Origin: Aporrectodea caliginosa
Lineage: Eukaryota; Annelida; Clitellata; Crassiclitellata; Lumbricidae
Reading direction: 5' to 3'
Length of the DNA stretch: 64,000 bases
NCBI GenBank assembly: GCA_020284085.1
Contig: JACEVL010000339.1
Coordinates: 197,501 to 261,500 of the forward strand
Of this stretch, positions 12,057 to 52,352 are shown piece after piece (position 1 is the stretch's first letter; each line of letters starts with the position of its first letter). A program made the position numbers and the translations under genes. The notes beneath the pieces are model-generated. The model worked only from the letters and a program-made list of their open reading frames with translations. It did not search any database and was not told where the DNA came from.

Positions 12057-22561
<10,505 letters not shown>

Positions 22562-23225
22562 TTTGCTCAAAATACTAAATGAAGTCATGTAATACACAAT
22601 CAAGTTTTAAATAAGAACATCTGTACATAAACGAACAACCAGATTAATAACCCAACAGCAGCAAGAATACTCAATACGGATAGAATTAGGTCACGCAGCT
22701 CAAGCGCCTCAGAATGATATGCTCGAAAGACTTCAAATTCCTACTGGAGCATGACGCACGACACTGATAGAGCCATACCGCATGAATAATTAATATATTG
22801 TTGAATTCATAGCTTCTACTCTGCATAATAAATGTACAGGTTGTGACTGTAAAATTCCGCATTACGCCTCCACACGTTCAAACATTATGTCACTGATGAT
22901 GCATACACGTACAGGGAAATATTTGTTCCAAACCACTGGTTTCCCTACTGACTTAGATAAGTGCTCACTGAGTAGCCTATATAGTACCTCGTACATTGCG
23001 CTGAGGTATTTCCCAATATGTTCATCTGAAGGTAAATTTCAATGTAAAGGTACGTGTTTTTCTGTAGCGACCCTTATGGCCTCGCCTCTGCTTATGTAAC
23101 GTTTCAATGTAGTCTCTAGTGAGGGGTGATATCCAGCTCCAACGCTGCCCGTTTGAATGGGTAGCACGCCATTTAAGGGCCCCGTGTGCGAATAGCGCTA
23201 GTTTGAAATTCAATTACCTTATATA

Positions 23226-28867: not shown

Positions 28868-29129
28868 CATCGAAAAGAACGATAAAGTAAACGGTTGGAC
28901 CTAACATAGGTCCAATTCGCCAACCTCCGCCCGTCTATGTTAGGTCCAACCCGACTCATGATGTCATCTCGAAACTATTGGAAATCCCCGCCCTCTTGCC
29001 AATGACTCATATCGAAACTATTGGAAATCCCCGCAGTATCGATAAGATCGCGCAACCCACCGCCGAGTCAACGCGTAATTACAGGGACTAATTTCTGTAG
29101 TGTCGTGCGTTGTCGGCCTGTGTAGGCAC
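28868..29129 (+). repeat. Polinton left terminal inverted repeat
   Basis: Inverted copy of 43087-43298. The inner end is at GCCTGTGTAGGCAC. It contains two tandem copies of TCGAAACTATTGGAAATCC (the right repeat has one) and two copies of the TTGGACCTAACATAGG motif. Left of CATCGAAAAGAACG the similarity stops. Confidence 0.9.
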
Positions 29130-29176: not shown

Positions 29177-29437
29177 ATGGACAGCGCAACGAAGACAGTA
29201 AACCAATTACGAAACATTGCCAAAGAGAAAGGCATGAAAGGATACTCGAGACTGCGAAAAGCGGAACTCGTAGCACTCATATCGTCGGGACCTGTACAAT
29301 GCATTACGACCGAACACGAAAGCAATCTGTTAGACGCACCGGTTCCTGACATTAGGGTTCCAACGCTTGTTCCGAGTAAGTACACGCCGCCGTCTAATAC
29401 TTGGAAATCATATTTCAGTAATGTTTTGAATGAGTGA
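29177..29437 (+). CDS. SAP-like N-terminal segment, probably start of PolB
   Basis: The ATG at 29177 has the context AACAAAATGG, also seen before other genes of the element, so I prefer it to the upstream non-ATG start. The 86 residues carry a SAP/Rho-N-like helical pair (VNQLRNIAKEKGMKG, RLRKAELVALI) and then a Pro-rich linker. In related Polintons such a segment forms the N-terminus of the PolB protein. Here it ends at TGA 29435-29437, just where the PolB frame opens at 29434 in the next frame. I infer a single gene broken by a one-base change or a sequencing error. Confidence 0.7.
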   Translation: MDSATKTVNQLRNIAKEKGMKGYSRLRKAELVALISSGPVQCITTEHESNLLDAPVPDIRVPTLVPSKYTPPSNTWKSYFSNVLNE

Positions 29438-32400
29438 AGAATAAGGTAAGGTCCAAACTCAACACCTTTTCAGATTGGTTGATTAATTTCGTAGTTCCTC
29501 GAGAACAGAAGCCTGTGAATGAAAGATTGGACGCGTTGAAGTCAGAGGTTTCGAGTATTTTCAGCAAAATTAATAAGAAGAAGTTCGAAATCCTAGAGAC
29601 CGCGAAGGCTATCAAGGGATTTACAAAGCGATACACGATCGACGGAGCTGATGGTATCGACGCCACATCTTTCCTCGATGCTGTTAGGCCTCAGGTAGTC
29701 AGTCTGTTAACGAAAAATCGCGGGGTAAAAGTTCAATTCAATCTTATGTGTGTAATGGAGAAAGCGGATATGAAATCCGGGGAAGTAGTTGAGGCTGAAC
29801 CTAATTTCAAATCAAAGACTGAAATCATTTTGGACTCAACTGACGTAGGTGAAATATATCGCAACGCGGTGGATAAAATTAAGGAGAGCATGGCGAGTTA
29901 TCAGATGCGAGGTAGTAATTGGAGGTTCAAAGCCGTTGCGAAGTTGGATATCGATACGTCAGGATATGAACCGTTGAAAGGTAATTCGTATATTCCACTT
30001 CCCGAGTATTTGGCAAATAAGAAGGCTATTATCAACCTGAAAAACACCGACGATGAATGTTTCAAATGGTGTATTACTAGAGCGTTGAACCAAACGGATA
30101 ACCACCCAGAAAGAATCACTAGAGATTTGATAGAACAATCTGAGAAGCTCGATTGGAGGGGCATTCAATTCCCAGTTGCTGCTGATGCAAATATAATAGG
30201 TAAATTTGAGCGCAACAATAACATTAGCGTTAACGTGTTCGGTTATGAAAGGGAAGTATACCCGTTATATATATCGAAGCATGAAAGCGATATCTGCGTT
30301 GACTTATTGCTTATTTCCGACGGCGAAAAGAAGCATTACTGTTGGATCAAGAATTTTAACAAATTGTTAGCATTACGAACAGAAAAATCCCATAATTCAA
30401 TGCACTACTGTAGAAGGTGTTTGATTGGTTTCAGAGAAGTAGATTCGCTTGCTAAGCATAGCGAGTACTGTTCGCGACAAGACGCCCAACGAATAGTCCT
30501 TCCTGACCCAGGAACCAAGCTAAGTTTCAAGCATTATTTCAAATCGATGAGAGTTCCTTTCGTATTCTATGCGGATTTCGAGTCTTTCATCAAACCGATC
30601 GATACCTGTCAACCCAATCCCAATACCTCTTACACCAATAAATACCAAAAACATGTACCTAGCTCGTTTTGTTATTACATGAAATGCTTCGACGACAGCC
30701 TATACTCGCAAGATCCGGTGTCGTACACGGCTGAAAGTGAGGACGACGATATCGCCCAGATATTCGTAGATACTCTCGTAGAAAATGTAAAACAGATATA
30801 CAATCGGTTCAAATTCCCTTTGAAGATGATATTCGGTAAAACTGAGAAGAAATGTTTCGATGAAGCTGCGAGCTGTCACATCTGTGGAGGAGAGTTAGGC
30901 GATGATCGAGTTAGGGATCACTGTCATTTGAGTGGTAAATTCAGAGGCGCAGCTCATAACCAGTGTAATTTAGAATACAGAGTCCCCAAGTTCTTCCCCG
31001 TTGTGCTACATAACCTTTCTGGATATGATGCGCATTTATTCGTGAAGAAATTACGAGGTGAGAATGGTGAGAAAATTAAATGTATTCCGTGTAACGAAGA
31101 AAAATATATATCGTTCAGCAGAGAAGTTGCGGTTGACAAGTTTGTAAACAAGGAAGGAACAGAGGTAACGGTCAAGCGTGAATTACGCTTCATCGATAGT
31201 TTCAGATTCATGCCCTCGAGTCTCGATGCATTATCGAAGAATCTTAGCAAAGAACAGTGTAAGAATCTGGGGAAACAGTTCTCGGGAAAGCGGCTCGATC
31301 TATTACTCAGAAAAGGAGTTTACCCATACGACTACGTTGACAGCGTTGAAAGACTCAGCGAAACAGAATTGCCCCCAAAACATAACTTCTATTCAAAACT
31401 GAACGACTCGGATATCAGTGATGAAGACTACGAGCACGCGAGAGCGGTATGGAACGAGTTTGGATTCAAAACGTTACGAGAATATCACGACTTGTACAAC
31501 GTTTCGGATGTTCTACTATTAGCCGATGTATTCGAAAACTTCAGAGACGTTTGTACCAAGAATTACAAGCTCGATCCCGCTTGGTATTTCACTTCACCCG
31601 GCCTAGCTTGGGATGCCGCATTGAAGTTAACCGGCGTAGAGTTGGAATTGTTGAGCGATTACGATATGCTACTCATGATCAAGCAGGGAATCAGAGGGGG
31701 AGTCAGCACGATCTCGAATCGATACGCGAAAGCAAACAACAAGTACATGGGAGAAGCTTTCAATAGCCGTGAGCCTTCATCGTTCATTCCTTACTTAGAC
31801 GCTAATAACTTGTATGGTTGGGCGATGAGCGGCCTATTACCAACTCATGAATTTACGTGGATGAGTGATAGCGAACTGAACGATTGGAGGCATATTACGG
31901 AACGAGAAGGGGTTGGATGCATTCTAGAAGTCGATTTAGAATATCCAGAAGAGCTGCACAATCTTCACAACGATTACCCACTAGCTCCAGAGAGCATGAA
32001 ACCCGCAGGTTCGGATGTGGCAAAACTGATTCCAAACCTGAACAATAAGACGAAGTACGTTCTACACTACGGTAATTTACAATTGTACGAGAGTCTCGGC
32101 TTGAAGATCACAAAAATTCATCGAGGATTGATGTTCGAAGAAGACGCCTGGCTGAAAAAGTATATCGATCTGAATACTGACTTACGAACGAAGGCAACTA
32201 ACGATTTCGAGAAAGACTTTTTCAAGCTCATGAACAATAGTGTCTTCGGGAAAACAATGGAATGTATCGAGAATAGAGTTGACGTGCGATTAGTGTGTGA
32301 TGAGAAAGAGGCTATCAAGCTCACAGCCAAAACCAATTATGACAGGCGAACTATCTTCGATGAGAATCTAATCGCCATTCACATGAAGAAGACCAAGCTG

Positions 32401-33015
32401 TTCTACAACAAACCGATATATCTAGGCATGTGTATCCTAGACTCTAGTAAAACGCTAATGTATGATTTTCATTATAATTATATCAAAGCCAAGTACGGTG
32501 ATAGAGCAAAACTGCTATTCACCGATACCGACTCGCTAGCCTATGAAATGAAGACCGAAGACTTTTACGCCGATATCGCTGGGGACGTTCGAAGTAGATT
32601 TGACACAAGCGACTACCCAAAAGACCATCCATCAGGTATAGAAACCGGGGTAAATAAGAAAGTGATAGGTATGTTCAAAGACGAAGCTGGTGGAAAACAG
32701 ATTGAAGAGTTCGTAGGTTTGCGATCGAAGCTGTACTCGTACAAAATGGCTGGAGAAGATTACAAGAAATGCAAGGGTGTGAAGAAGAACGTCGTGAAGA
32801 AAACGATAACCCACCAAGATTACAAAGATTGCTTGTTTACGAAAAGAGAACAGTCGCGTAGAATGAATGTTATACGATCGCATCTTCATGATGTATACAC
32901 CGAGGAGATCAACAAAATAGCGCTTTCCTGCGATGACGACAAACGGGCCATCTTGGAAGATGGAATCCATACTTTGGCATACGGCCACTACTCTTTGAAA
33001 ACTAAAAATACATAA
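29434..33015 (+). CDS. POLB: Protein-primed family B DNA polymerase
   Basis: Replicates the linear element with a terminal protein as primer. Counting from 29434: exonuclease motifs FYADFESF (about 377), HNLSGYDAHLF (about 527) and YNVSDVLLLADV (about 688); polymerase motif A DANNLYGWAM (about 788), motif B KLMNNSVFGKTME (about 931), and motif C TDTDS (about 1030). Before the polymerase part lie a C2H2-like finger (CRRCLIGF...HSEYC) and an endonuclease-VII-like Cys/His cluster (CHICGGEL...DHCHLSGKFRG). The frame has no usable ATG near its 5' end: its first residues follow a TGA at 29431 and its true N-terminus is almost certainly the 29177 segment. An AATAAA lies at 33017-33022, just after the stop. 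All catalytic residues look intact. Confidence 0.95.
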   Translation: MKNKVRSKLNTFSDWLINFVVPREQKPVNERLDALKSEVSSIFSKINKKKFEILETAKAIKGFTKRYTIDGADGIDATSFLDAVRPQVVSLLTKNRGVKVQFNLMCVMEKADMKSGEVVEAEPNFKSKTEIILDSTDVGEIYRNAVDKIKESMASYQMRGSNWRFKAVAKLDIDTSGYEPLKGNSYIPLPEYLANKKAIINLKNTDDECFKWCITRALNQTDNHPERITRDLIEQSEKLDWRGIQFPVAADANIIGKFERNNNISVNVFGYEREVYPLYISKHESDICVDLLLISDGEKKHYCWIKNFNKLLALRTEKSHNSMHYCRRCLIGFREVDSLAKHSEYCSRQDAQRIVLPDPGTKLSFKHYFKSMRVPFVFYADFESFIKPIDTCQPNPNTSYTNKYQKHVPSSFCYYMKCFDDSLYSQDPVSYTAESEDDDIAQIFVDTLVENVKQIYNRFKFPLKMIFGKTEKKCFDEAASCHICGGELGDDRVRDHCHLSGKFRGAAHNQCNLEYRVPKFFPVVLHNLSGYDAHLFVKKLRGENGEKIKCIPCNEEKYISFSREVAVDKFVNKEGTEVTVKRELRFIDSFRFMPSSLDALSKNLSKEQCKNLGKQFSGKRLDLLLRKGVYPYDYVDSVERLSETELPPKHNFYSKLNDSDISDEDYEHARAVWNEFGFKTLREYHDLYNVSDVLLLADVFENFRDVCTKNYKLDPAWYFTSPGLAWDAALKLTGVELELLSDYDMLLMIKQGIRGGVSTISNRYAKANNKYMGEAFNSREPSSFIPYLDANNLYGWAMSGLLPTHEFTWMSDSELNDWRHITEREGVGCILEVDLEYPEELHNLHNDYPLAPESMKPAGSDVAKLIPNLNNKTKYVLHYGNLQLYESLGLKITKIHRGLMFEEDAWLKKYIDLNTDLRTKATNDFEKDFFKLMNNSVFGKTMECIENRVDVRLVCDEKEAIKLTAKTNYDRRTIFDENLIAIHMKKTKLFYNKPIYLGMCILDSSKTLMYDFHYNYIKAKYGDRAKLLFTDTDSLAYEMKTEDFYADIAGDVRSRFDTSDYPKDHPSGIETGVNKKVIGMFKDEAGGKQIEEFVGLRSKLYSYKMAGEDYKKCKGVKKNVVKKTITHQDYKDCLFTKREQSRRMNVIRSHLHDVYTEEINKIALSCDDDKRAILEDGIHTLAYGHYSLKTKNT

Positions 33016-33036: not shown

Positions 33037-33714
33037 ATGGAAGTCTCAAAAGTGTGTTCCAAATGTAAAATGGAAAAAACCTTGAACGAATTTTACAAAG
33101 ATAAATCACAAAAGAGCGGGTATTATCCCAGCTGCAGAACGTGTAAACATAACACAGTGAAGGAACTTACTCAAAAATATTCGCTACTTGTGGATAGGGA
33201 AACGAAAGAGAAAAAAGTTTGCAGCCAATGTAAGAAAGAAAAGAATGTTTCAGAATATTCAAAAAACAGATGCCACAAAGACGGGCTAGACAATGTTTGC
33301 AAACATTGTAAAAGAATATATAATTGCGCGTACTCGAAAACCCGAGCACAATACGACCCAGAGTTCAAACTACATTCAAACCTAAGATGTAGACTCGGCA
33401 GAGCATTGAGAGGTAAGTCGAAAACACAAACTACCAGGCAACTTATCGGTCTTGACTTTGAAATGTTTACAAAGTGGATTGAATATCAGTTGGAAGAAGG
33501 AATGACTATGCAAAATTACGGGTCGGTTTGGCAACTCGACCACGTTCTACCGATATCTTCCTTCAATTTGCTAGACGAAGAGGAACTTCAGAAAGCTATG
33601 AATTGGAAGAATATACGCCCTTTGCTACCTCTTAGAAATATCCAAAAATCTAACAAAATAGATCGCTGGCTGTATGTTATGCAGGAAGTAAAAGCATATT
33701 ACTTTCTAAAATGA
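33037..33714 (+). CDS. HNH endonuclease-like zinc-ribbon protein
   Basis: 225 residues; ATG in the context TACAAAATGG, 21 bases after the PolB stop. Two treble-clef style repeats of the form CxxCK-x-K...F/Y...C-x-x-CK (CSKCKMEKTLNEFYKD and CSQCKKEKNVSEYSKN, each closed by CRTCK or CKHCK) precede an HNH core: WQLDHVLPISSF, then NWKNIRPL and RNIQKSNK. Similar proteins occur in phages and large DNA viruses. It may nick DNA in replication, recombination or homing; the role here is inferred. Its stop overlaps the protease start (ATGA, 33711-33714), suggesting coupled expression. Confidence 0.82.
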   Translation: MEVSKVCSKCKMEKTLNEFYKDKSQKSGYYPSCRTCKHNTVKELTQKYSLLVDRETKEKKVCSQCKKEKNVSEYSKNRCHKDGLDNVCKHCKRIYNCAYSKTRAQYDPEFKLHSNLRCRLGRALRGKSKTQTTRQLIGLDFEMFTKWIEYQLEEGMTMQNYGSVWQLDHVLPISSFNLLDEEELQKAMNWKNIRPLLPLRNIQKSNKIDRWLYVMQEVKAYYFLK

Positions 33715-34142
33715 GCTCAACAAGTGTGAAAAATATCGATGTTGAAGGTGTGGTCCTTCCAAATCATCCATTAACGAATTTTGAATTATTGGATGCCGCG
33801 AAGAAGCTGAACATTCCAAATTTTAGTGGAGTTTTTCTACGAGATGAGCTGCTGAAGAAACCTAGACGGAAGGAGTGTGGTATTCTCAACCTAGACGATT
33901 CTAATGGGGTAGGGTCACATTGGTGCTGTTTTTTCAAGAACGGTAACGACAAATTTTACTTCGACAGCTACGGCCTTCCACCACCAACCGAGCTGTTGAA
34001 GTATTTGGGCGGCTCTGTATATTACAACAGCGAACGAATACAGCCGGACAATGAAGTATTTTGCGGTCATTTGTGTTTGTACGTACTGAAAGCGATCGCT
34101 AACGGTCGTAAATTTCAAGAAGTTGTAAACGATTTGTATTAA
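33711..34142 (+). CDS. PRO: Adenain-like cysteine protease
   Basis: 143 residues, start overlapping the HNH stop. Catalytic order of the adenovirus protease/Ulp1 clan: His70 in GSHWCCFF, Asp85 in YFDSYG, Gln111 for the oxyanion hole and Cys118 in EVFCGHLCLYVLK. The family processes capsid precursors during virion maturation, so its presence beside capsid genes implies that particles were made. It is shorter than adenovirus protease but complete across the catalytic core. Likely substrates are the minor and core proteins on the opposite strand. Confidence 0.9.
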   Translation: MSSTSVKNIDVEGVVLPNHPLTNFELLDAAKKLNIPNFSGVFLRDELLKKPRRKECGILNLDDSNGVGSHWCCFFKNGNDKFYFDSYGLPPPTELLKYLGGSVYYNSERIQPDNEVFCGHLCLYVLKAIANGRKFQEVVNDLY

Positions 34143-34166
34143 TAATATTGTATATTCAAAAACACA

Positions 34167-35222
34167 ATGCCAGTTGATAAATTTGGACATACCGATTCAG
34201 GTTCCGGTTCTATGCAAAGAGTAGTCGCAGGAGGTGTCACGCTGACTCAAGTAAATAATACTTTTGTCAGGCTAGATGGAACGAACGCCTTCGTGGGAAA
34301 TTTAAATATGGGAGGGAACTCGATCGAAAATCTATCGATGACGTATACTCCGGCCGAAGATAACGATTTGACTACCAAGAAATACGCCGATGAACAAGAC
34401 GCTACGAAGGTATCGAAGACTGGTGATATCATGGGTAATCTAATTCTAAATGTCGACGTAGATCGCATACGCACGATGGGGTGTAGGGATTTGAGAGGAA
34501 ATAGACAATTCACATTATTGTTGGGTAGTACGACGAATAAAATGCTATGTCAGTTGAACGTTCCTATCACGCTACAAACGACTGATGGATTACGTGTTCG
34601 AATACATGATGAAGTCGCTATCGATATCGTCAAAACTAGCCACGATCCCTTTGCAAGAATAAATGTGTTCAAAGATATCTATATGAATGGGGCGCGAATC
34701 ACAGGTCTAGCCGAACCCACCAGCGGGGGTAACGCTGTTACGAAGAACTACGTCGATCAGTCTCTTAGAAAAAAGTGCCTTGTTGGATATATTCCTAATT
34801 TAGAAGCTAATAATAGCATGACTGGTTTCATCGCTAATGCCAGTTCGAGTGGCGTCGGGCATGAGGCGTACAGGGCTTTCAACAATCTCGTATCAGGTGA
34901 TTCTTGGTTTTCAAGCGATGAGGGTACAACCTTTTGGTTAGGGATAAAATGTCCAGAACCGGTTCTAATTTGGAGAGTCGCGTTGAAAGTTAGAAAGGAA
35001 TTGGAAGGCTGGAATCTATCGGCGAGCAACGATGGAACACCGTTTGAAGTATTATTCTCATCGACGAGTGCATTACAGAAAGAATTCGTTTATTTTTTTG
35101 ATATTTCGACGACGACTGCTTACCAGTATTACAGACTTACGGCAATAGACAATGATTTTCCTAACACTGATTGGTCTAACAATGGAATTCAGCTCATGCA
35201 ATTATACGTTTACAATACATAA
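34167..35222 (+). CDS. Fibre-like protein with C-terminal discoidin-like domain
   Basis: 351 residues. The N-terminal half has tail-fibre style repeats with GGNSIENLSMTYTPAEDNDLTTKKYAD and GARITGLAEPTSGGNAVTKNYVD character, each a beta-strand followed by T-K-x-Y-x-D (abridged here; see residues 50-75 and 170-195). This pattern is common in trimeric phage fibres. The C-terminal ~130 residues resemble an F5/8 type C (discoidin) jelly roll: GHEAYRAFNN, FWLGIKCPEPV, GWNLSASNDG, YYRLTAIDND, QLMQLYVY. I infer a trimeric attachment fibre whose tip binds carbohydrate or lipid. It is last in the left rightward block, directly before the hairpin at 35229-35258. Confidence 0.7.
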   Translation: MPVDKFGHTDSGSGSMQRVVAGGVTLTQVNNTFVRLDGTNAFVGNLNMGGNSIENLSMTYTPAEDNDLTTKKYADEQDATKVSKTGDIMGNLILNVDVDRIRTMGCRDLRGNRQFTLLLGSTTNKMLCQLNVPITLQTTDGLRVRIHDEVAIDIVKTSHDPFARINVFKDIYMNGARITGLAEPTSGGNAVTKNYVDQSLRKKCLVGYIPNLEANNSMTGFIANASSSGVGHEAYRAFNNLVSGDSWFSSDEGTTFWLGIKCPEPVLIWRVALKVRKELEGWNLSASNDGTPFEVLFSSTSALQKEFVYFFDISTTTAYQYYRLTAIDNDFPNTDWSNNGIQLMQLYVYNT

Positions 35223-41610: not shown

Positions 41611-42167
41611 TGAGTAACAATCTGTATTGCGTAAAGTGTAAGTCAAAAACCGAAACGAGAGATATTCAGAACGTCGTTAGTAAAAATAATAGGAACATGC
41701 TTCGAGGCGTTTGCGCCGTGTGCGGAACGACAAAAACTCAATTCGTGAAAGGAACTCCTTCACACGGAGGAGATCTAGTCGGTTCACTAAATTCAGTTAC
41801 GAGAAATATTAAACTACCGTGGGCTAAATTTCCAGGCGAGATGCATCTACCAGGTCATTCGTTTACCGGTCCCGGCACTAGATTGGATTTGAGACTGAAT
41901 CCTGATGGGAGTCCCAAAGATTGGAGTAAACCCGTTGACAGAGTAGATAACGCTGCGTATCATCACGATTTAGCTTACGACAGGTATTCGGATACCGCCA
42001 CTAGGAATGTCGCCGACAGAACGATGATAGACGAGTTGAATAATATTCCTAATCCTACTATCAGAGAGCGCATCGAAAGAGCGGTAGTGAAGCCTGTATT
42101 GTCCGCCAAAGCGAGTCTCGGTCTAGGTTTGGGGTCTTCAAAAAACTACAAGAGGAAAAGAAGTTGA
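41610..42167 (+). CDS. Viral phospholipase A2-like protein
   Basis: 185 residues. N-terminal zinc ribbon YCVKCKSKT...CAVCGT (Cys 7, 10, 35, 38). Then a parvovirus/adintovirus-type PLA2: TGPGTRLDLR (Ca-binding GPG loop, 86-95) and the catalytic YHHDLAYD (His119-Asp120). In parvoviruses this activity opens endosomal membranes during entry; the same is inferred here. A basic tail (YKRKRS) ends at TGA 42165. The last codons contain an in-frame A AAA AAC slippery heptamer at 42140-42146, and integrase follows in the -1 frame. Confidence 0.85.
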   Translation: MSNNLYCVKCKSKTETRDIQNVVSKNNRNMLRGVCAVCGTTKTQFVKGTPSHGGDLVGSLNSVTRNIKLPWAKFPGEMHLPGHSFTGPGTRLDLRLNPDGSPKDWSKPVDRVDNAAYHHDLAYDRYSDTATRNVADRTMIDELNNIPNPTIRERIERAVVKPVLSAKASLGLGLGSSKNYKRKRS

Positions 42168-43087
42168 AGTGGACTGATGAACTAGCGAATGAATTGCACA
42201 AACCCGCGGTACATCGTTTTCAGAAAAGGAAGGTTTACGTCGGGGGTATTGATGATATATGGGCGGCTGACCTGGTTGATATGCAGGCATTTGCCGAACA
42301 GAACGATGATGTGAAATATCTGTTATGCGTCATAGATTTATTTTCTAGATACGGTTGGATCGCTCCATTGAATGATAAGAGCGGTGACTCCGTTTACAAT
42401 GCCTTCGCGAAGATATTTACGAGCAGCGGACGAAAACCCCAGAAACTCTGGGTTGACAAAGGGACTGAATTCTATAATAAACGTGTAAAGTCTTTGGGAG
42501 TCGAGCTGTATTCGACTGAAAATGAAGAGAAATCATGCGTCGTTGAGAGATGGAACAGGACGATGAAAGAAAAGATGTACAAATATTTTTCAGCTAATTC
42601 TACGAGAAGATATGTAGACGTGTTGGAAGAAATGGTTAGCATTTACAACAACGTTAGACACAGTTCTATACAAATGACGCCTGCTAAGGCGAGTATGAAG
42701 GCAAATGAAAGAATCGTGTGGTTGAATTTATACGGCGGCCTACACCCTACGCGCGTCAAACCAAAGTTTTCAGTAGGCGACAGCGTTAGAATCACTAAGA
42801 AAAAGAAGACCTTTGAAAAGGGTTACACGCCGAGATGGACTGAAGAAGTATTTACAGTATCGCAAGTACAATACACAGATCCACCAACTTATAAAATTAC
42901 TGATTGTAATGATGAGGAAATACAGGGTTCATTCTACGAAGAAGAGCTACAAAAGACTACTCAAGAAATATTCAGGATCGAAAAAGTTATTAGAACACGC
43001 GGGAAGAAATCTCTCGTAAAGTGGCTCGGATACCCAGACTCGTTCAATTCTTGGATCGATAATGAGGCATTGATGACTTTACCTTAG
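42053..43087 (+). CDS. INT: Retroviral-type integrase with chromodomain
   Basis: Inserts the element into host DNA. With the TTG at 42164 counted as residue 1: Asp36 in AADLVDM, Asp98 in WVDKGTEF and Glu128 in VVERWNR form the DDE triad; a C-terminal chromodomain (FRIEKVIRTRGKKSLVKW, then GYPDSFNSWID) may target chromatin. The frame is open from 42053, but no ATG precedes the catalytic core; the first conserved residues, ELHKPAVHRF, lie at about residue 10. Polinton integrases normally have a further N-terminal region, which here is missing or replaced by PLA2 through a -1 frameshift at 42140. The stop codon TAG ends at 43087, exactly where the right terminal repeat begins. Confidence 0.92.
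   Translation, partial: SYYQRAHRKSGSEACIVRQSESRSRFGVFKKLQEEKKLKWTDELANELHKPAVHRFQKRKVYVGGIDDIWAADLVDMQAFAEQNDDVKYLLCVIDLFSRYGWIAPLNDKSGDSVYNAFAKIFTSSGRKPQKLWVDKGTEFYNKRVKSLGVELYSTENEEKSCVVERWNRTMKEKMYKYFSANSTRRYVDVLEEMVSIYNNVRHSSIQMTPAKASMKANERIVWLNLYGGLHPTRVKPKFSVGDSVRITKKKKTFEKGYTPRWTEEVFTVSQVQYTDPPTYKITDCNDEEIQGSFYEEELQKTTQEIFRIEKVIRTRGKKSLVKWLGYPDSFNSWIDNEALMTLP
42140..42146 (+). promoter_or_regulatory. Candidate -1 ribosomal frameshift site
   Basis: The heptamer AAAAAAC is divided by the PLA2 frame as A AAA AAC, the form X XXY YYZ used by many viruses. A -1 slip here moves ribosomes into the integrase frame, which is open from 42053 to 43087 and has no ATG near its 5' end. I see no obvious stem-loop in the following 60 bases by eye. 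Confidence 0.65.
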
Positions 43088-43325
43088 TGCCTACACAGGC
43101 CGACAACGCACGACACTACAGAAATTAGTCCCTGTAATTACGCGTTGACTCGGCTGTGGGTTGCGCGATCTTATCGATACTGCGGGGATTTCCAATAGTT
43201 TCGATATGAGTCATTGGCAAGAGGGCGGGTGGCGAATTGGACCTAACATAGGTTCGTGCACGGGGGAGGTTGGACCTACTTTATCGTTCTTTTCGATGTG
43301 TGCTGATTTGGACCTATGTTAGGTT
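43087..43325 (-). repeat. Polinton right terminal inverted repeat
   Basis: Inverted copy of the left repeat, with its inner end GTGCCTACACAGGC at 43087, overlapping the integrase stop. It has one copy of the ACTATTGGAAATCC unit where the left repeat has two, and extends further outward to a TTGGACCTATGTTAGG motif at 43308-43323. Confidence 0.88.
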
Positions 43326-45799
43326 CTTAGAAGCATATTTCGGAATCGTAAGTTAAATAAATTTACGAATATAAATTACAAAAGCTAAGTGTAAACATGG
43401 AATACGCTCATCTGGTCAATTGATTCTTTAAAGACCATTAATTGCGTCACTTAGCCTACAATTCTCTTATCAAAGATTATGTCCCTTGTTAGCATTGGAA
43501 TTATTTCTATGGATTTAAGAAAAATTCTTCTAAAAATGTTTAAATGAATGATTCAATAAGGCAAGTTATCTGCCAAATCTAATAATCTGGAGCTTACATT
43601 CTTTTGAAATCACGCAAAAAATGAACCACAATCTAGTCCTAACGGTGCTTATAATTTTGTTTCAATCAAATGTAGGTTATTAGAAAATTGTGCAGGCTTA
43701 ATCCTATAAAACGGGATTTTCTTTAAACCAGGAAGCTACACGCATTTGAAGCCGTTCTCACAGTAGCTTGCTTTTATTGCTTGCAATACGTATAACCGTT
43801 GAACTTTATTAAACTCACCAAAAGCAACTGTTGGAGACCATTTCTGCACCATCATGCTCAAAATTCTAAATTAACTCATGTAATGCACGCCTAAGTTTTA
43901 ATAAGCTCATCTATTATAGGCCTACATGAACGAACAACCAAGTTTATGACCGAACAACAGCAAGAAAACTCAATACGGAAAGAATTAGGTCACTCAGCTC
44001 AAGAACCTGAAGATGATAATATAATACATGTATGCTCGATAGACTTCAACTTGTTACCTAAGCATGACGCAGGACACTGATAGAGGCGTACAGCATGAAT
44101 AGTTGATATAATGGTTGAATTCAAAGGGTATGCATAATAATGTACAGGGGTTGTGACTGTAAAAATTCGGTAGTTTCTCTCACTTGTTCAAACCATGTTT
44201 CACTGAAAATGCATATACGTTGGCCTACGTTGAAATATTTCGTTCCGCTCCACAGGTTTCCCTACTGGCTTATGTAAGCACTCACTGACGATATGGTTCC
44301 TCGTTTATTACGCTGATGAACTTCCCTATTTGTTCTTCTGAAGGGAAATTTTCTCCATGTATGTAATACGTAAATGTACATGTTTTTCAGTAGCGACCGT
44401 ATGGCCTCGACCCTGCTAATTTATTAATGTACTGATGGGGTGAAATCCTGCTCCAACGCCGCCCGTTTGAACGGGTGCGTGTACGGACCGTTCTAGAGCG
44501 ACCGGATAGCATCGATCCTGCTAATTCTTCGATGAATTGATCGGGTGAGATCAGTTTTGAATGGGAGCCACGCCATTTAAGGTCTCCGTGTAAGGACCGT
44601 GCTAACCCGAGATTTAATTTTCTTAAATATATGTGGCTAGCTCCTATAGAGGTCATCCAGCAACTGGCTGGAATTATCTACCTGTGACGATACATTCATC
44701 CATGCATGCATTTCTCTTCTTGAAGATTTGTGTGTACATATTTTGTTTGTGACCATGTCTATATAGCCTCGCCACTGCTGCCAGAGACATCGCAACCGAC
44801 TGACATGTACCAGCCGTGAATTGAGGAAATGCATTTAACTTCACGACAGTAGACACGCTAGATTCAGATATCACGTCGCAGTAGTCATTAGATTTGACCT
44901 ATTCCAGAGTTTAAATATGCTAATCTTGATTCAAGCTTGCTGAAACTGCGCCACTGATTGTACTCTGTCAGTGCCAGTCCCAAGCCTGGATGAAGGAGGA
45001 GGGCGACGCTATTGATCTTTGTTATCACACAGTGTCGTTAAACTGAAACTACTACTAAAGCTTGCTTAAATTAATTGAAATGGCTTAGTAAGAACCAGAC
45101 TAGGGACTATGGTACTGTGACCTTTCTGACTATTTACAGTATCCACCCTGATAAGTCGTTCTGCTGCCTGTGTTCGTCAACCTCTAACTGAGACTTCTAT
45201 GCAGTCCTGATGTAACAGCAATAATCCAATACAGCAGGCAGCATATTATGTTCAAACTCATATACAAAATAAGCAAACAAATCTGCAGTTTGTTAAAAGT
45301 CTGTAAAGGCGATATACAGGAAGTATGAAAATGTTTTTTTACTTGGGTGAACTTGTATACCGCAAAAATTGCATATATTAAATGTGGTATAATCGAACTG
45401 AATTCGTAAGACCATTCGTAAGAAACCAGACACTGCCTGTTCAAATAGGCGTCTTTTCGAAAGGTGTAATGCAATGCAACTTAGGCTACTGTAATATAAT
45501 TGTAAATTAATGCAATGCGATACCATGCAATATTGTGCAATGCAGTCTAATACAGTGTAAAGTAGGCCTAATGTAATTTAATGCAATTTACATGTAGGCT
45601 AATGCAATCTCAAAGAATGTGTAAGGATATGGACAGAACCCAATAACTGCAGCTTCTGTTCGCTCAATATCATTAGTGCTATTCTTGTAAATATCGCTGA
45701 GTTTTGACCGATAATTGATGGCCTGCTATAATTCGAATTGTCTATTTGCTTTGCTGTATCTGGAGAAGTTGCCCAATGATACGAACGAGAACACTGTAA
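43326..45799. other. Gene B intron 1, exon 1 and 5' flank; duplicated region
   Basis: 43345-44630 aligns throughout with 21570-23215 (intron 1, exon 1 and upstream flank of gene A), so this is a segmental duplicate. Beyond it, 44640-45800 is AT-rich with no gene; 45460-45620 has repeated TAATGCAAT units. Confidence 0.65.
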
Positions 45800-51574: not shown

Positions 51575-52352
51575 GTATGCGGACAATTCATCCCCGGACG
51601 ATTCATCCCGGACGATTCATCCCCGGACTATTGATCCCCGGACGATTCATCCTGGACCATTCATCCTGGACCATTCATCCTGGACGATTCATCCTGGACC
51701 ATTCATCCTGGACGATTCATCCTGGACCATTCATCCCTGGACGATTCATCCTGGACCATTCATCCCGGACCATTCATCCTGGACGATTCATCCTGGACCA
51801 TTCATCCTGGACCATTCATCCTGGACCATTCATCCCGGACCATTCAATCAAATGAAATAGAAATTACGATATAAAGTAAAGCAACGGAAAGAATTGAAAT
51901 TAATGAAGAAGCATCTATTTGAAATTTATCAGCAGTAGTAGGTGTAGAGGTCCTGATGGTGTAGTGAAGGGACTAGTTCACTGTAACAGAAATATCCTTG
52001 TATTAATACACATTATCAAATGAAATAAAACAAATGTTGCATTAACCTATTTATACCATGACCATACCATGAAAGGTGCGTTAAAGCTTCATAATTCACT
52101 TACTAACCACAATCATAGAATACTGTCCAGGATGAATCGTCCGGGATGAATCGTCCGGGATGAATGGTCCAGGATGAATCGTCCAGGATGAATCGTCCAG
52201 GATGAACAGTCCGGGGATGAATGGTCCAGGATGAATCGTCCGGGGATGAATTGTCCGGGGATGAATCGTCCGGGGATGAATTGTCCGGGGATGAATCGTC
52301 CAGGATGAATCGTCCGGGGATGAATTCTCCGGGGATGAATAGTCACCAAACC
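51575..52352. mobile_element. Foldback element 1 with minisatellite arms
   Basis: 778 bp. The left arm (51578-51845) is ~18 units of GGACGATTCATCCT/GGACCATTCATCCT; the right arm (52118-52342) is the same unit inverted (GGATGAATCGTCC). The middle is AT-rich and non-coding. The insert is flanked by an exact 10-bp duplication CGAATCCATG (51565-51574, 52353-52362). The target is a tRNA-like SINE. It shares the outer GTAT(G/C)CGGAC start with element 2 at 56050. Confidence 0.82.

Follow-up and report, generated by a model that had tools for sequence, protein, structure and literature searches.

The window, meaning the whole 64,000-nucleotide stretch of Aporrectodea caliginosa DNA that was analysed, holds an element approximately 14.2 kb long that is bounded by 143-nt TIRs with 99% complementarity. 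It encodes a DJR-like capsid protein (Pfam PF21738, 2.3e-54) and a Pox_A32-like packaging ATPase (Pfam, 4.1e-8), and the TIRs, double jelly-roll capsid and packaging ATPase mark it as a Polinton or adintovirus-like element. The integrase (INT) that completes the features by which Polinton/Maverick elements are recognized matches rve at 1.2e-7 in Pfam, its 32.3 bits being just under the curated cut-off of 32.6, and PF00665 is pre-assigned to most of its relatives among the matches listed. The INT second ORF also has a weak Chromo match in Pfam (9.3e-4), likewise under the cut-off. The ORF at 29434-33015, named PolB by eye, gave no Pfam match at 0.01. An ATG-started short ORF at 29177-29437 is in a different frame from it, and among 150 sister copies scored, several have a longer open frame at this gene (1280-1296 aa versus 1193 in the window); because of these longer frames the break near 29434 is probably private to a few copies, unlike the PLA2/INT offset dealt with below. 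Between the putative protease ORF and the capsid gene is an ORF, 34146-35222, of fibre-like look but with no Pfam match.

Table 1. Coordinates in the window of the TIRs and of the ORFs, domains and junction features considered here
Feature	Position	Strand	Remarks
Left TIR of Polinton	28987..29129	+	Complementary to 43087-43229
Putative cysteine protease ORF	33654-34142		Named by eye
DUF5679 zinc-ribbon + PLA2 ORF, 185 aa	41610..42167	+	ATG 41610, TGA 42165-42167
DUF5679 domain, residues 6-45	41625..41744	+	Pfam PF18930, 1.1e-16
Phospholipase A2-like domain, residues 77-145	41838..42044	+	PF08398 Phospholip_A2_4, 1.3e-11
Integrase open frame	42053..43087	+	Offset by -1 from PLA2; lacks an ATG ahead of the catalytic core
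A AAA AAC slippery heptamer	42140..42146	+	In phase with PLA2 (X XXY YYZ)
INT-frame linker K-L-Q-E-E-K-K-L-K-W	42143..42172	+	Where one-frame fusions have their lysine-rich linker
Right TIR of Polinton	43087..43229	-	Starts on the final base of the INT ORF

In the window PLA2 and INT are two ORFs offset by -1 and not a single continuous one. A preliminary description had placed A AAA AAC in the PLA2 frame near its end, with INT in the -1 frame, open from 42053 and without an ATG before its core, and the ORF coordinates bear out both statements. The PLA2 codons TCA AAA AAC occupy 42138-42146, so the heptamer is in phase; it is the sole in-phase canonical heptamer within the entire PLA2 CDS of the window, and the TGA that ends PLA2 is 18 nt past it. 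The PLA2 frame has the C-terminal end ...GLGLGSSKNYKRKRS and the INT frame at the junction reads ...KLQEEKKLKWTDEL..., its first Met being inside the core (...WAADLVDM...). Being in -1, open across the heptamer and devoid of an AUG of its own, the INT ORF has the disposition by which the downstream ORF of a programmed frameshifting pair is recognized.

The search with INT yielded 4835 relatives, the best 120 of which were listed, and that with the fusion protein P0016, out of 8000 candidates scored, retained 3538 at E 1e-30, again with the best 120 listed. PLA2 and INT are in one ORF in 98 of 342 fetched relatives, most of them with DUF5679 as well (104 with a looser script, a count that takes in P0241, for which no PLA2 domain is listed). 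One-ORF DUF5679-PLA2-INT fusions include P0016, P0042, P0089, P0117, P0244 and P0254 among others, and the members of three fusion clusters number 300, 365 and 134. Named sources are Hydra vulgaris and Nymphon striatum, the Hydra ones being gene models with possible predicted introns. As judged from these sequences, relatives do have a real PLA2-INT fusion. The ribbon-PLA2-INT protein of about 490 residues that had been envisaged thus has a counterpart encoded by a single ORF (P0016, 492 aa), but in the window its parts are divided between two. One protein, P0113 (358 aa, 8 member sequences), has DUF5679 joined straight to INT without a PLA2 domain, and the INT proteins P0241 and P0055 have a seemingly part-duplicated integrase segment.

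The single-ORF fusions have the same domains, in the same order and with the junction in the same place, as the window, whose two frames align with them on both sides of the junction; they differ in having a continuous frame and no free PLA2 from an early stop. Their linkers are lysine-rich, with KK in 87 of 95 and KN in 4 of 95, and lie at the position of the slippery run of the window, such that the frames, if joined by a -1 slip at the heptamer, would meet right at the P0016 linker (...GLGLASSDSKSDLKVKWTDQL...). In simple pattern counts from phylogenetically non-independent sequences, SKN is present directly after GLG in 37 of the 119 PLA2-only relatives (a set that takes in P0144, really a fusion fragment) versus none of the 95 fusion linkers, the remaining PLA2-only relatives having KK (68/119), other KN (8/119) or neither (6/119) there. 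PLA2 P0121 and INT P0001 come from different ENA contigs, with 98-99% identity and the same split. Scans of IMG/VR and GTDB gave no relative, three pattern matches being unrelated by eye; phage records likewise held no relative, and PDB had no match to INT.

The 1.10 Gb assembly of the same genome provided 130 INT copies scored from 2650 first-look candidates, and 127 of them were fetched, the other three being at contig edges. With respect to PLA2, INT is in the -1 frame in 90 of the 127, in +1 in 31 and in the same frame in four, and two are without PLA2. By junction, the 125 copies that have PLA2 can be divided into three main types plus two singletons. In the SKN type (tcAAAAAAC), to which the window belongs, all 20 copies are -1, and 18 have 99-100% INT identity. 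A PLA2 search recovered a further six, -1 by eye, and the A6 run is present in all 26 copies, in seven sequence groups (grouped by eye), a count that is partly circular as 20 of the 26 were typed by holding TCAAAAAAC itself. Since L021, which has a type of its own, is the only untyped copy among the 125, no SKN junction of shifted length was missed in that set. Past the run the SKN linkers differ by 15 nt, a multiple of three, and by many substitutions, with A6 kept. Sequencing error in the SKN run, considered as a source of the offset, is unlikely because all 26 copies agree and the ENA contigs share the split. The sequence observation first made in the window is confirmed as correct and, within the SKN type, conserved, heptamer, -1 offset and missing INT ATG being common to sister copies across the seven groups. 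A common frame for PLA2 and INT in relatives had been named as a sign that the offset is a recent indel; relatives of this kind do exist, but the offset of the SKN type is no recent indel because 26 copies in seven groups share it.

The second type, ggtttA7gctt, is the most numerous, with 73 copies of which 68 are at -1, and in all 68 both U UUA AAA and A AAA AAA are in phase, elsewhere than the SKN heptamer. In the third, ggtttA6gctt, 26 of 30 copies are at +1; in a few junctions of this class the run is preceded by an additional T (L023 and L120 for example). The sole A8 copy, L039, is open in one frame for 540 codons. Among relatives the outcome is mixed: heptamer and offset are both present in 26 of 26 SKN copies, the A7 type has another heptamer, the A6 type is mostly +1 and others have one frame. 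An A-run is at the junction in all main types and in 124 of the 125 typed copies. When the overlap is measured from the opening of the INT frame, an in-phase canonical heptamer lies within it in 87 of 90 -1 copies versus none of 31 +1 copies. Through the copies L031-L126 (for instance L045, L057 and L039) there are junctions that have an A-run of 6 or 7 (8 in L039) and are otherwise identical or nearly so, and the INT frame changes with them. Raw counts of A6 to A7 changes, in either direction, on the tree are 16 with 76 rows or 18 with 101 rows. Length errors between A6 and A7 may be present copy by copy, though A6 copies group together on the tree, 9 of them making up a clade of 11 with 2 A7 copies. 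Individual copies carry lesions: a stop in the -1 frame directly after the heptamer in L020, a stop just ahead of INT in L134, and lesions further downstream in L132, L133 and L137.

The presence of a heptamer is by itself weak evidence, since the window overlap has at least one canonical in-phase heptamer in 14% of dinucleotide and 15% of codon shuffles, AAAAAAC itself occurring in 2.2% of the latter; for the A7 overlap the proportions with a canonical heptamer are 6-10% of mononucleotide and 25-34% of codon shuffles. Its conservation throughout the own-genome SKN copies suggests more than chance.

A downstream pseudoknot had been put forward as something to be predicted; neither a stem above shuffles nor a pseudoknot was found, and structure-stimulated frameshifting is unsupported. 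Downstream of the window heptamer no stable structure was detected (z -0.11), nor was there any in 11 junction sequences, for which z ranged from about -1.7 to 1.9 against mononucleotide shuffles; a crude scan for local structure gave no H-type pseudoknot in 5 of the 11 sequences, and the stem or pseudoknot 5-9 nt downstream that is characteristic of programmed frameshifting was not seen in the local scan. The single Rfam match near the site is far under the gathering score. The shift, if ribosomal, would accordingly be a weak one with no stimulator, perhaps suitable for an enzyme required in small amounts. A AAA AAC is the heptamer used by MMTV and HTLV. It is also used by astroviruses, and the passages of that account which deal with slippery sites have a heptamer alone as insufficient for efficient shifting (PMC3835772), which to that extent weighs against an efficient shift at the Polinton junction.

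Whatever its frame, INT shows little sign of a start of its own. The INT frame contains no ATG from where it opens to the first catalytic Asp in any of 121 own-genome copies (the 127 less two without PLA2, the A8 copy and three whose INT match does not start at the first Trp). Of the INT-only relatives of JGI source among the matches listed (n=34), 32 begin with V or L, and so at a non-ATG codon, and two at the core Met. The segment WTDEL..ELHKP past the junction is conserved as protein, and a near-cognate codon is absent ahead of WTDEL in 22 of 30 A6 copies. From the missing ATG, the few near-cognate codons and the relatives starting at V or L, it is most likely that translation of INT enters from upstream. 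A TTG that overlaps the PLA2 stop in the window could be read as favoring expression of INT alone, by non-AUG initiation, by reinitiation at the PLA2 stop or from a spliced start exon, and the occurrence of three offsets while INT stays constrained would fit with the offset being irrelevant. Yet between the INT opening and the first conserved Trp an in-frame TTG is patchy, being present in 18 of 20 SKN and 25 of 71 A7 but only 6 of 30 A6 copies, and the one-frame fusions of relatives indicate that fused translation is viable. With splice sites scored by approximate matrices in the window and six other copies, the PLA2 of several copies has donors in the top 0.2-0.3% and the window has an acceptor, after 42064, in the top 3.8%. 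On the other side, none of the six other copies has an acceptor within the top 15% in the last 110 nt before INT (the best are in the top 16-27%), and by hand count the best window donor, 41638, with its best acceptor is out of the INT frame. Splicing into INT is rejected as the main reading because of these poor acceptors and the out-of-frame pair; splicing and independent initiation both fit worse than slippage, and expression of INT on its own is considered unlikely.

INT is under purifying selection (pN/pS approximately 0.12). The values are 0.121 across 20 SKN copies, 0.115 between the window and L019, 0.130 for A7 and 0.151 for A6, with 0.086 in eight of the nine A6 copies of the clade that also has two A7 members; all groups computed fall within 0.07-0.15, figures that are biased down somewhat as the copies were chosen by protein score. 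By this measure INT has stayed functional in present-day -1 and +1 groups alike. Such constraint argues against dead copies, and in the +1 groups it also speaks against -1 being strictly required, unless the A6 copies have had A7 phases in their past, which is possible since the A6 clade also holds two A7 copies. The alternative of a lesion, in which a PLA2-INT gene once in one frame was broken and its copies are now dead or helped in trans, would agree with the one-frame fusions of relatives and of L039, and with the window PolB-like frame being shorter than that of several sisters. The same idea has to contend with the low pN/pS in each group, with a -1 state common to 26 SKN and 68 A7 copies, and with the near-identity of 18 copies that speaks for recent spread in that state, and it is quite unlikely.

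The best reading is that INT is made by slippage on the A-run as a PLA2-INT fusion, with ribosomal -1 slippage most likely in the SKN family. Observations that underlie it are the ORFs, the in-phase heptamer, the common -1 offset, the missing ATG, the selection on INT and the one-ORF fusions; from them we infer that slippage takes place, that it is ribosomal, its rate and the role of the fusion. It gains further support from the different heptamer of the A7 type, from SKN being present in PLA2-only relatives but not in fusion linkers, and from the low acceptor ranks in the six other copies. Ribosomes translating the DUF5679-PLA2 ORF would shift back by one base at A AAA AAC and so bypass the PLA2 stop, giving a DUF5679-PLA2-INT fusion of some 490 residues, with free PLA2 being made in larger amount. 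The fusion may, as a plausible guess, carry integrase into the particle on the capsid-associated PLA2. Whether a ribosomal -1 slip does yield the fusion beside more free PLA2 seems to us evenly balanced.

Strict -1 programmed frameshifting for INT is plausible on the sequences compared, and the proposal of a -1 frameshift is partly supported. It does not hold as a general rule, as in the ggttt subfamily copies with runs of 6, 7 and 8 are mostly +1, -1 and same-frame respectively. What counts against a ribosomal -1 shift is that most A6 copies, being +1, are unable to reach INT by -1 while INT is still constrained. The lack of any detected downstream structure, the chance frequency of canonical heptamers, the stops in L020 and L134, the KK of 68 PLA2-only relatives and the window acceptor after 42064 count against it too. 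From the A6/A7/A8 series it seems to be the run itself that is important, and, with similar INT constraint in these different frames, slippage by ribosome or polymerase fits better than structure-stimulated frameshifting. Polymerase slippage would add or drop an A on the A6-A8 run to give minority mRNAs with PLA2 and INT in one frame, so that the fusion product would be identical but the mechanism transcriptional. It accords with the near-universal A-run, with A6 and A7 occurring in otherwise identical junctions, with constraint on INT in both +1 and -1 groups and with RNA structure being neither required nor found. Transcriptional slippage has no need, though, of the canonical in-phase heptamer that nearly all -1 copies possess, and six A's are a short run for host RNA polymerase II; on balance this origin of the fusion is improbable. 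We also advance, tentatively and as a minority possibility, that slippage at the PLA2-INT junction is switchable by length, any A count (6, 7 or 8) giving enough fusion, through ribosome or polymerase, for integrase to remain under selection, so that lineages drift between one-frame, -1 and +1 states with integration retained. Were that so, delivery of integrase on a capsid-linked phospholipase would be a general trait of this Polinton clade. In any event the presence of A6, A7 and A8 variants in one genome provides a natural series for measuring slippage.

The arrangement at the junction, with an upstream protein ending past an in-phase X XXY YYZ and a start-less integrase or enzyme ORF in -1, resembles that of retroviral Gag-Pro and Gag-Pol. 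It differs in that the element is a DNA transposon or virus with a nuclear transcript, that PLA2 stands in for Gag, that sister subfamilies change frame and that the Polinton junction has no detected downstream stem or pseudoknot. Transcriptional slippage of the PIPO type in potyviruses, on a run of A6, is a parallel of another kind, a short A-run there also leading to a minor fused product, but with an RNA virus polymerase. To our knowledge Polinton virions have rarely if ever been seen. A PLA2-INT fusion, whether from one ORF or through a frameshift, offers a testable model for how integrase enters the particle, namely as an extension of a capsid-associated enzyme in the manner of retroviral Pol on Gag, and, if true, the integrase of a DNA transposon would be expressed by recoding.

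The suggestion that no such case has been described in Polintons was echoed by a literature search, made mainly outside subscription papers and missing most of those, in which neither a PLA2-integrase fusion nor a frameshift leading to one was found in print. Within the same broad element group, -1 frameshifts have been predicted computationally from slippery sites in adintovirus Penton and Hexon-Adenain; these are other genes, and in the text available of that work PLA2 does not occur and the relevant passages make no mention of an integrase fusion (PMC11071296). Some Polintons encode a PLA2 that is most similar to parvovirus capsid PLA2, the portion of that report concerned with it describing neither fusion to integrase nor recoding (PMC4642659).

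The window has repeats besides the TIRs. Diverged direct repeats at 22432-23225 and 43710-44629, pieces D5-D7, are some 21.3 kb apart with 73-84% identity, and the right-hand copy (43710-44629) adjoins the right side of the Polinton. At 51594-52344, 14- to 15-bp minisatellite arrays are opposed and constitute a large inverted repeat.
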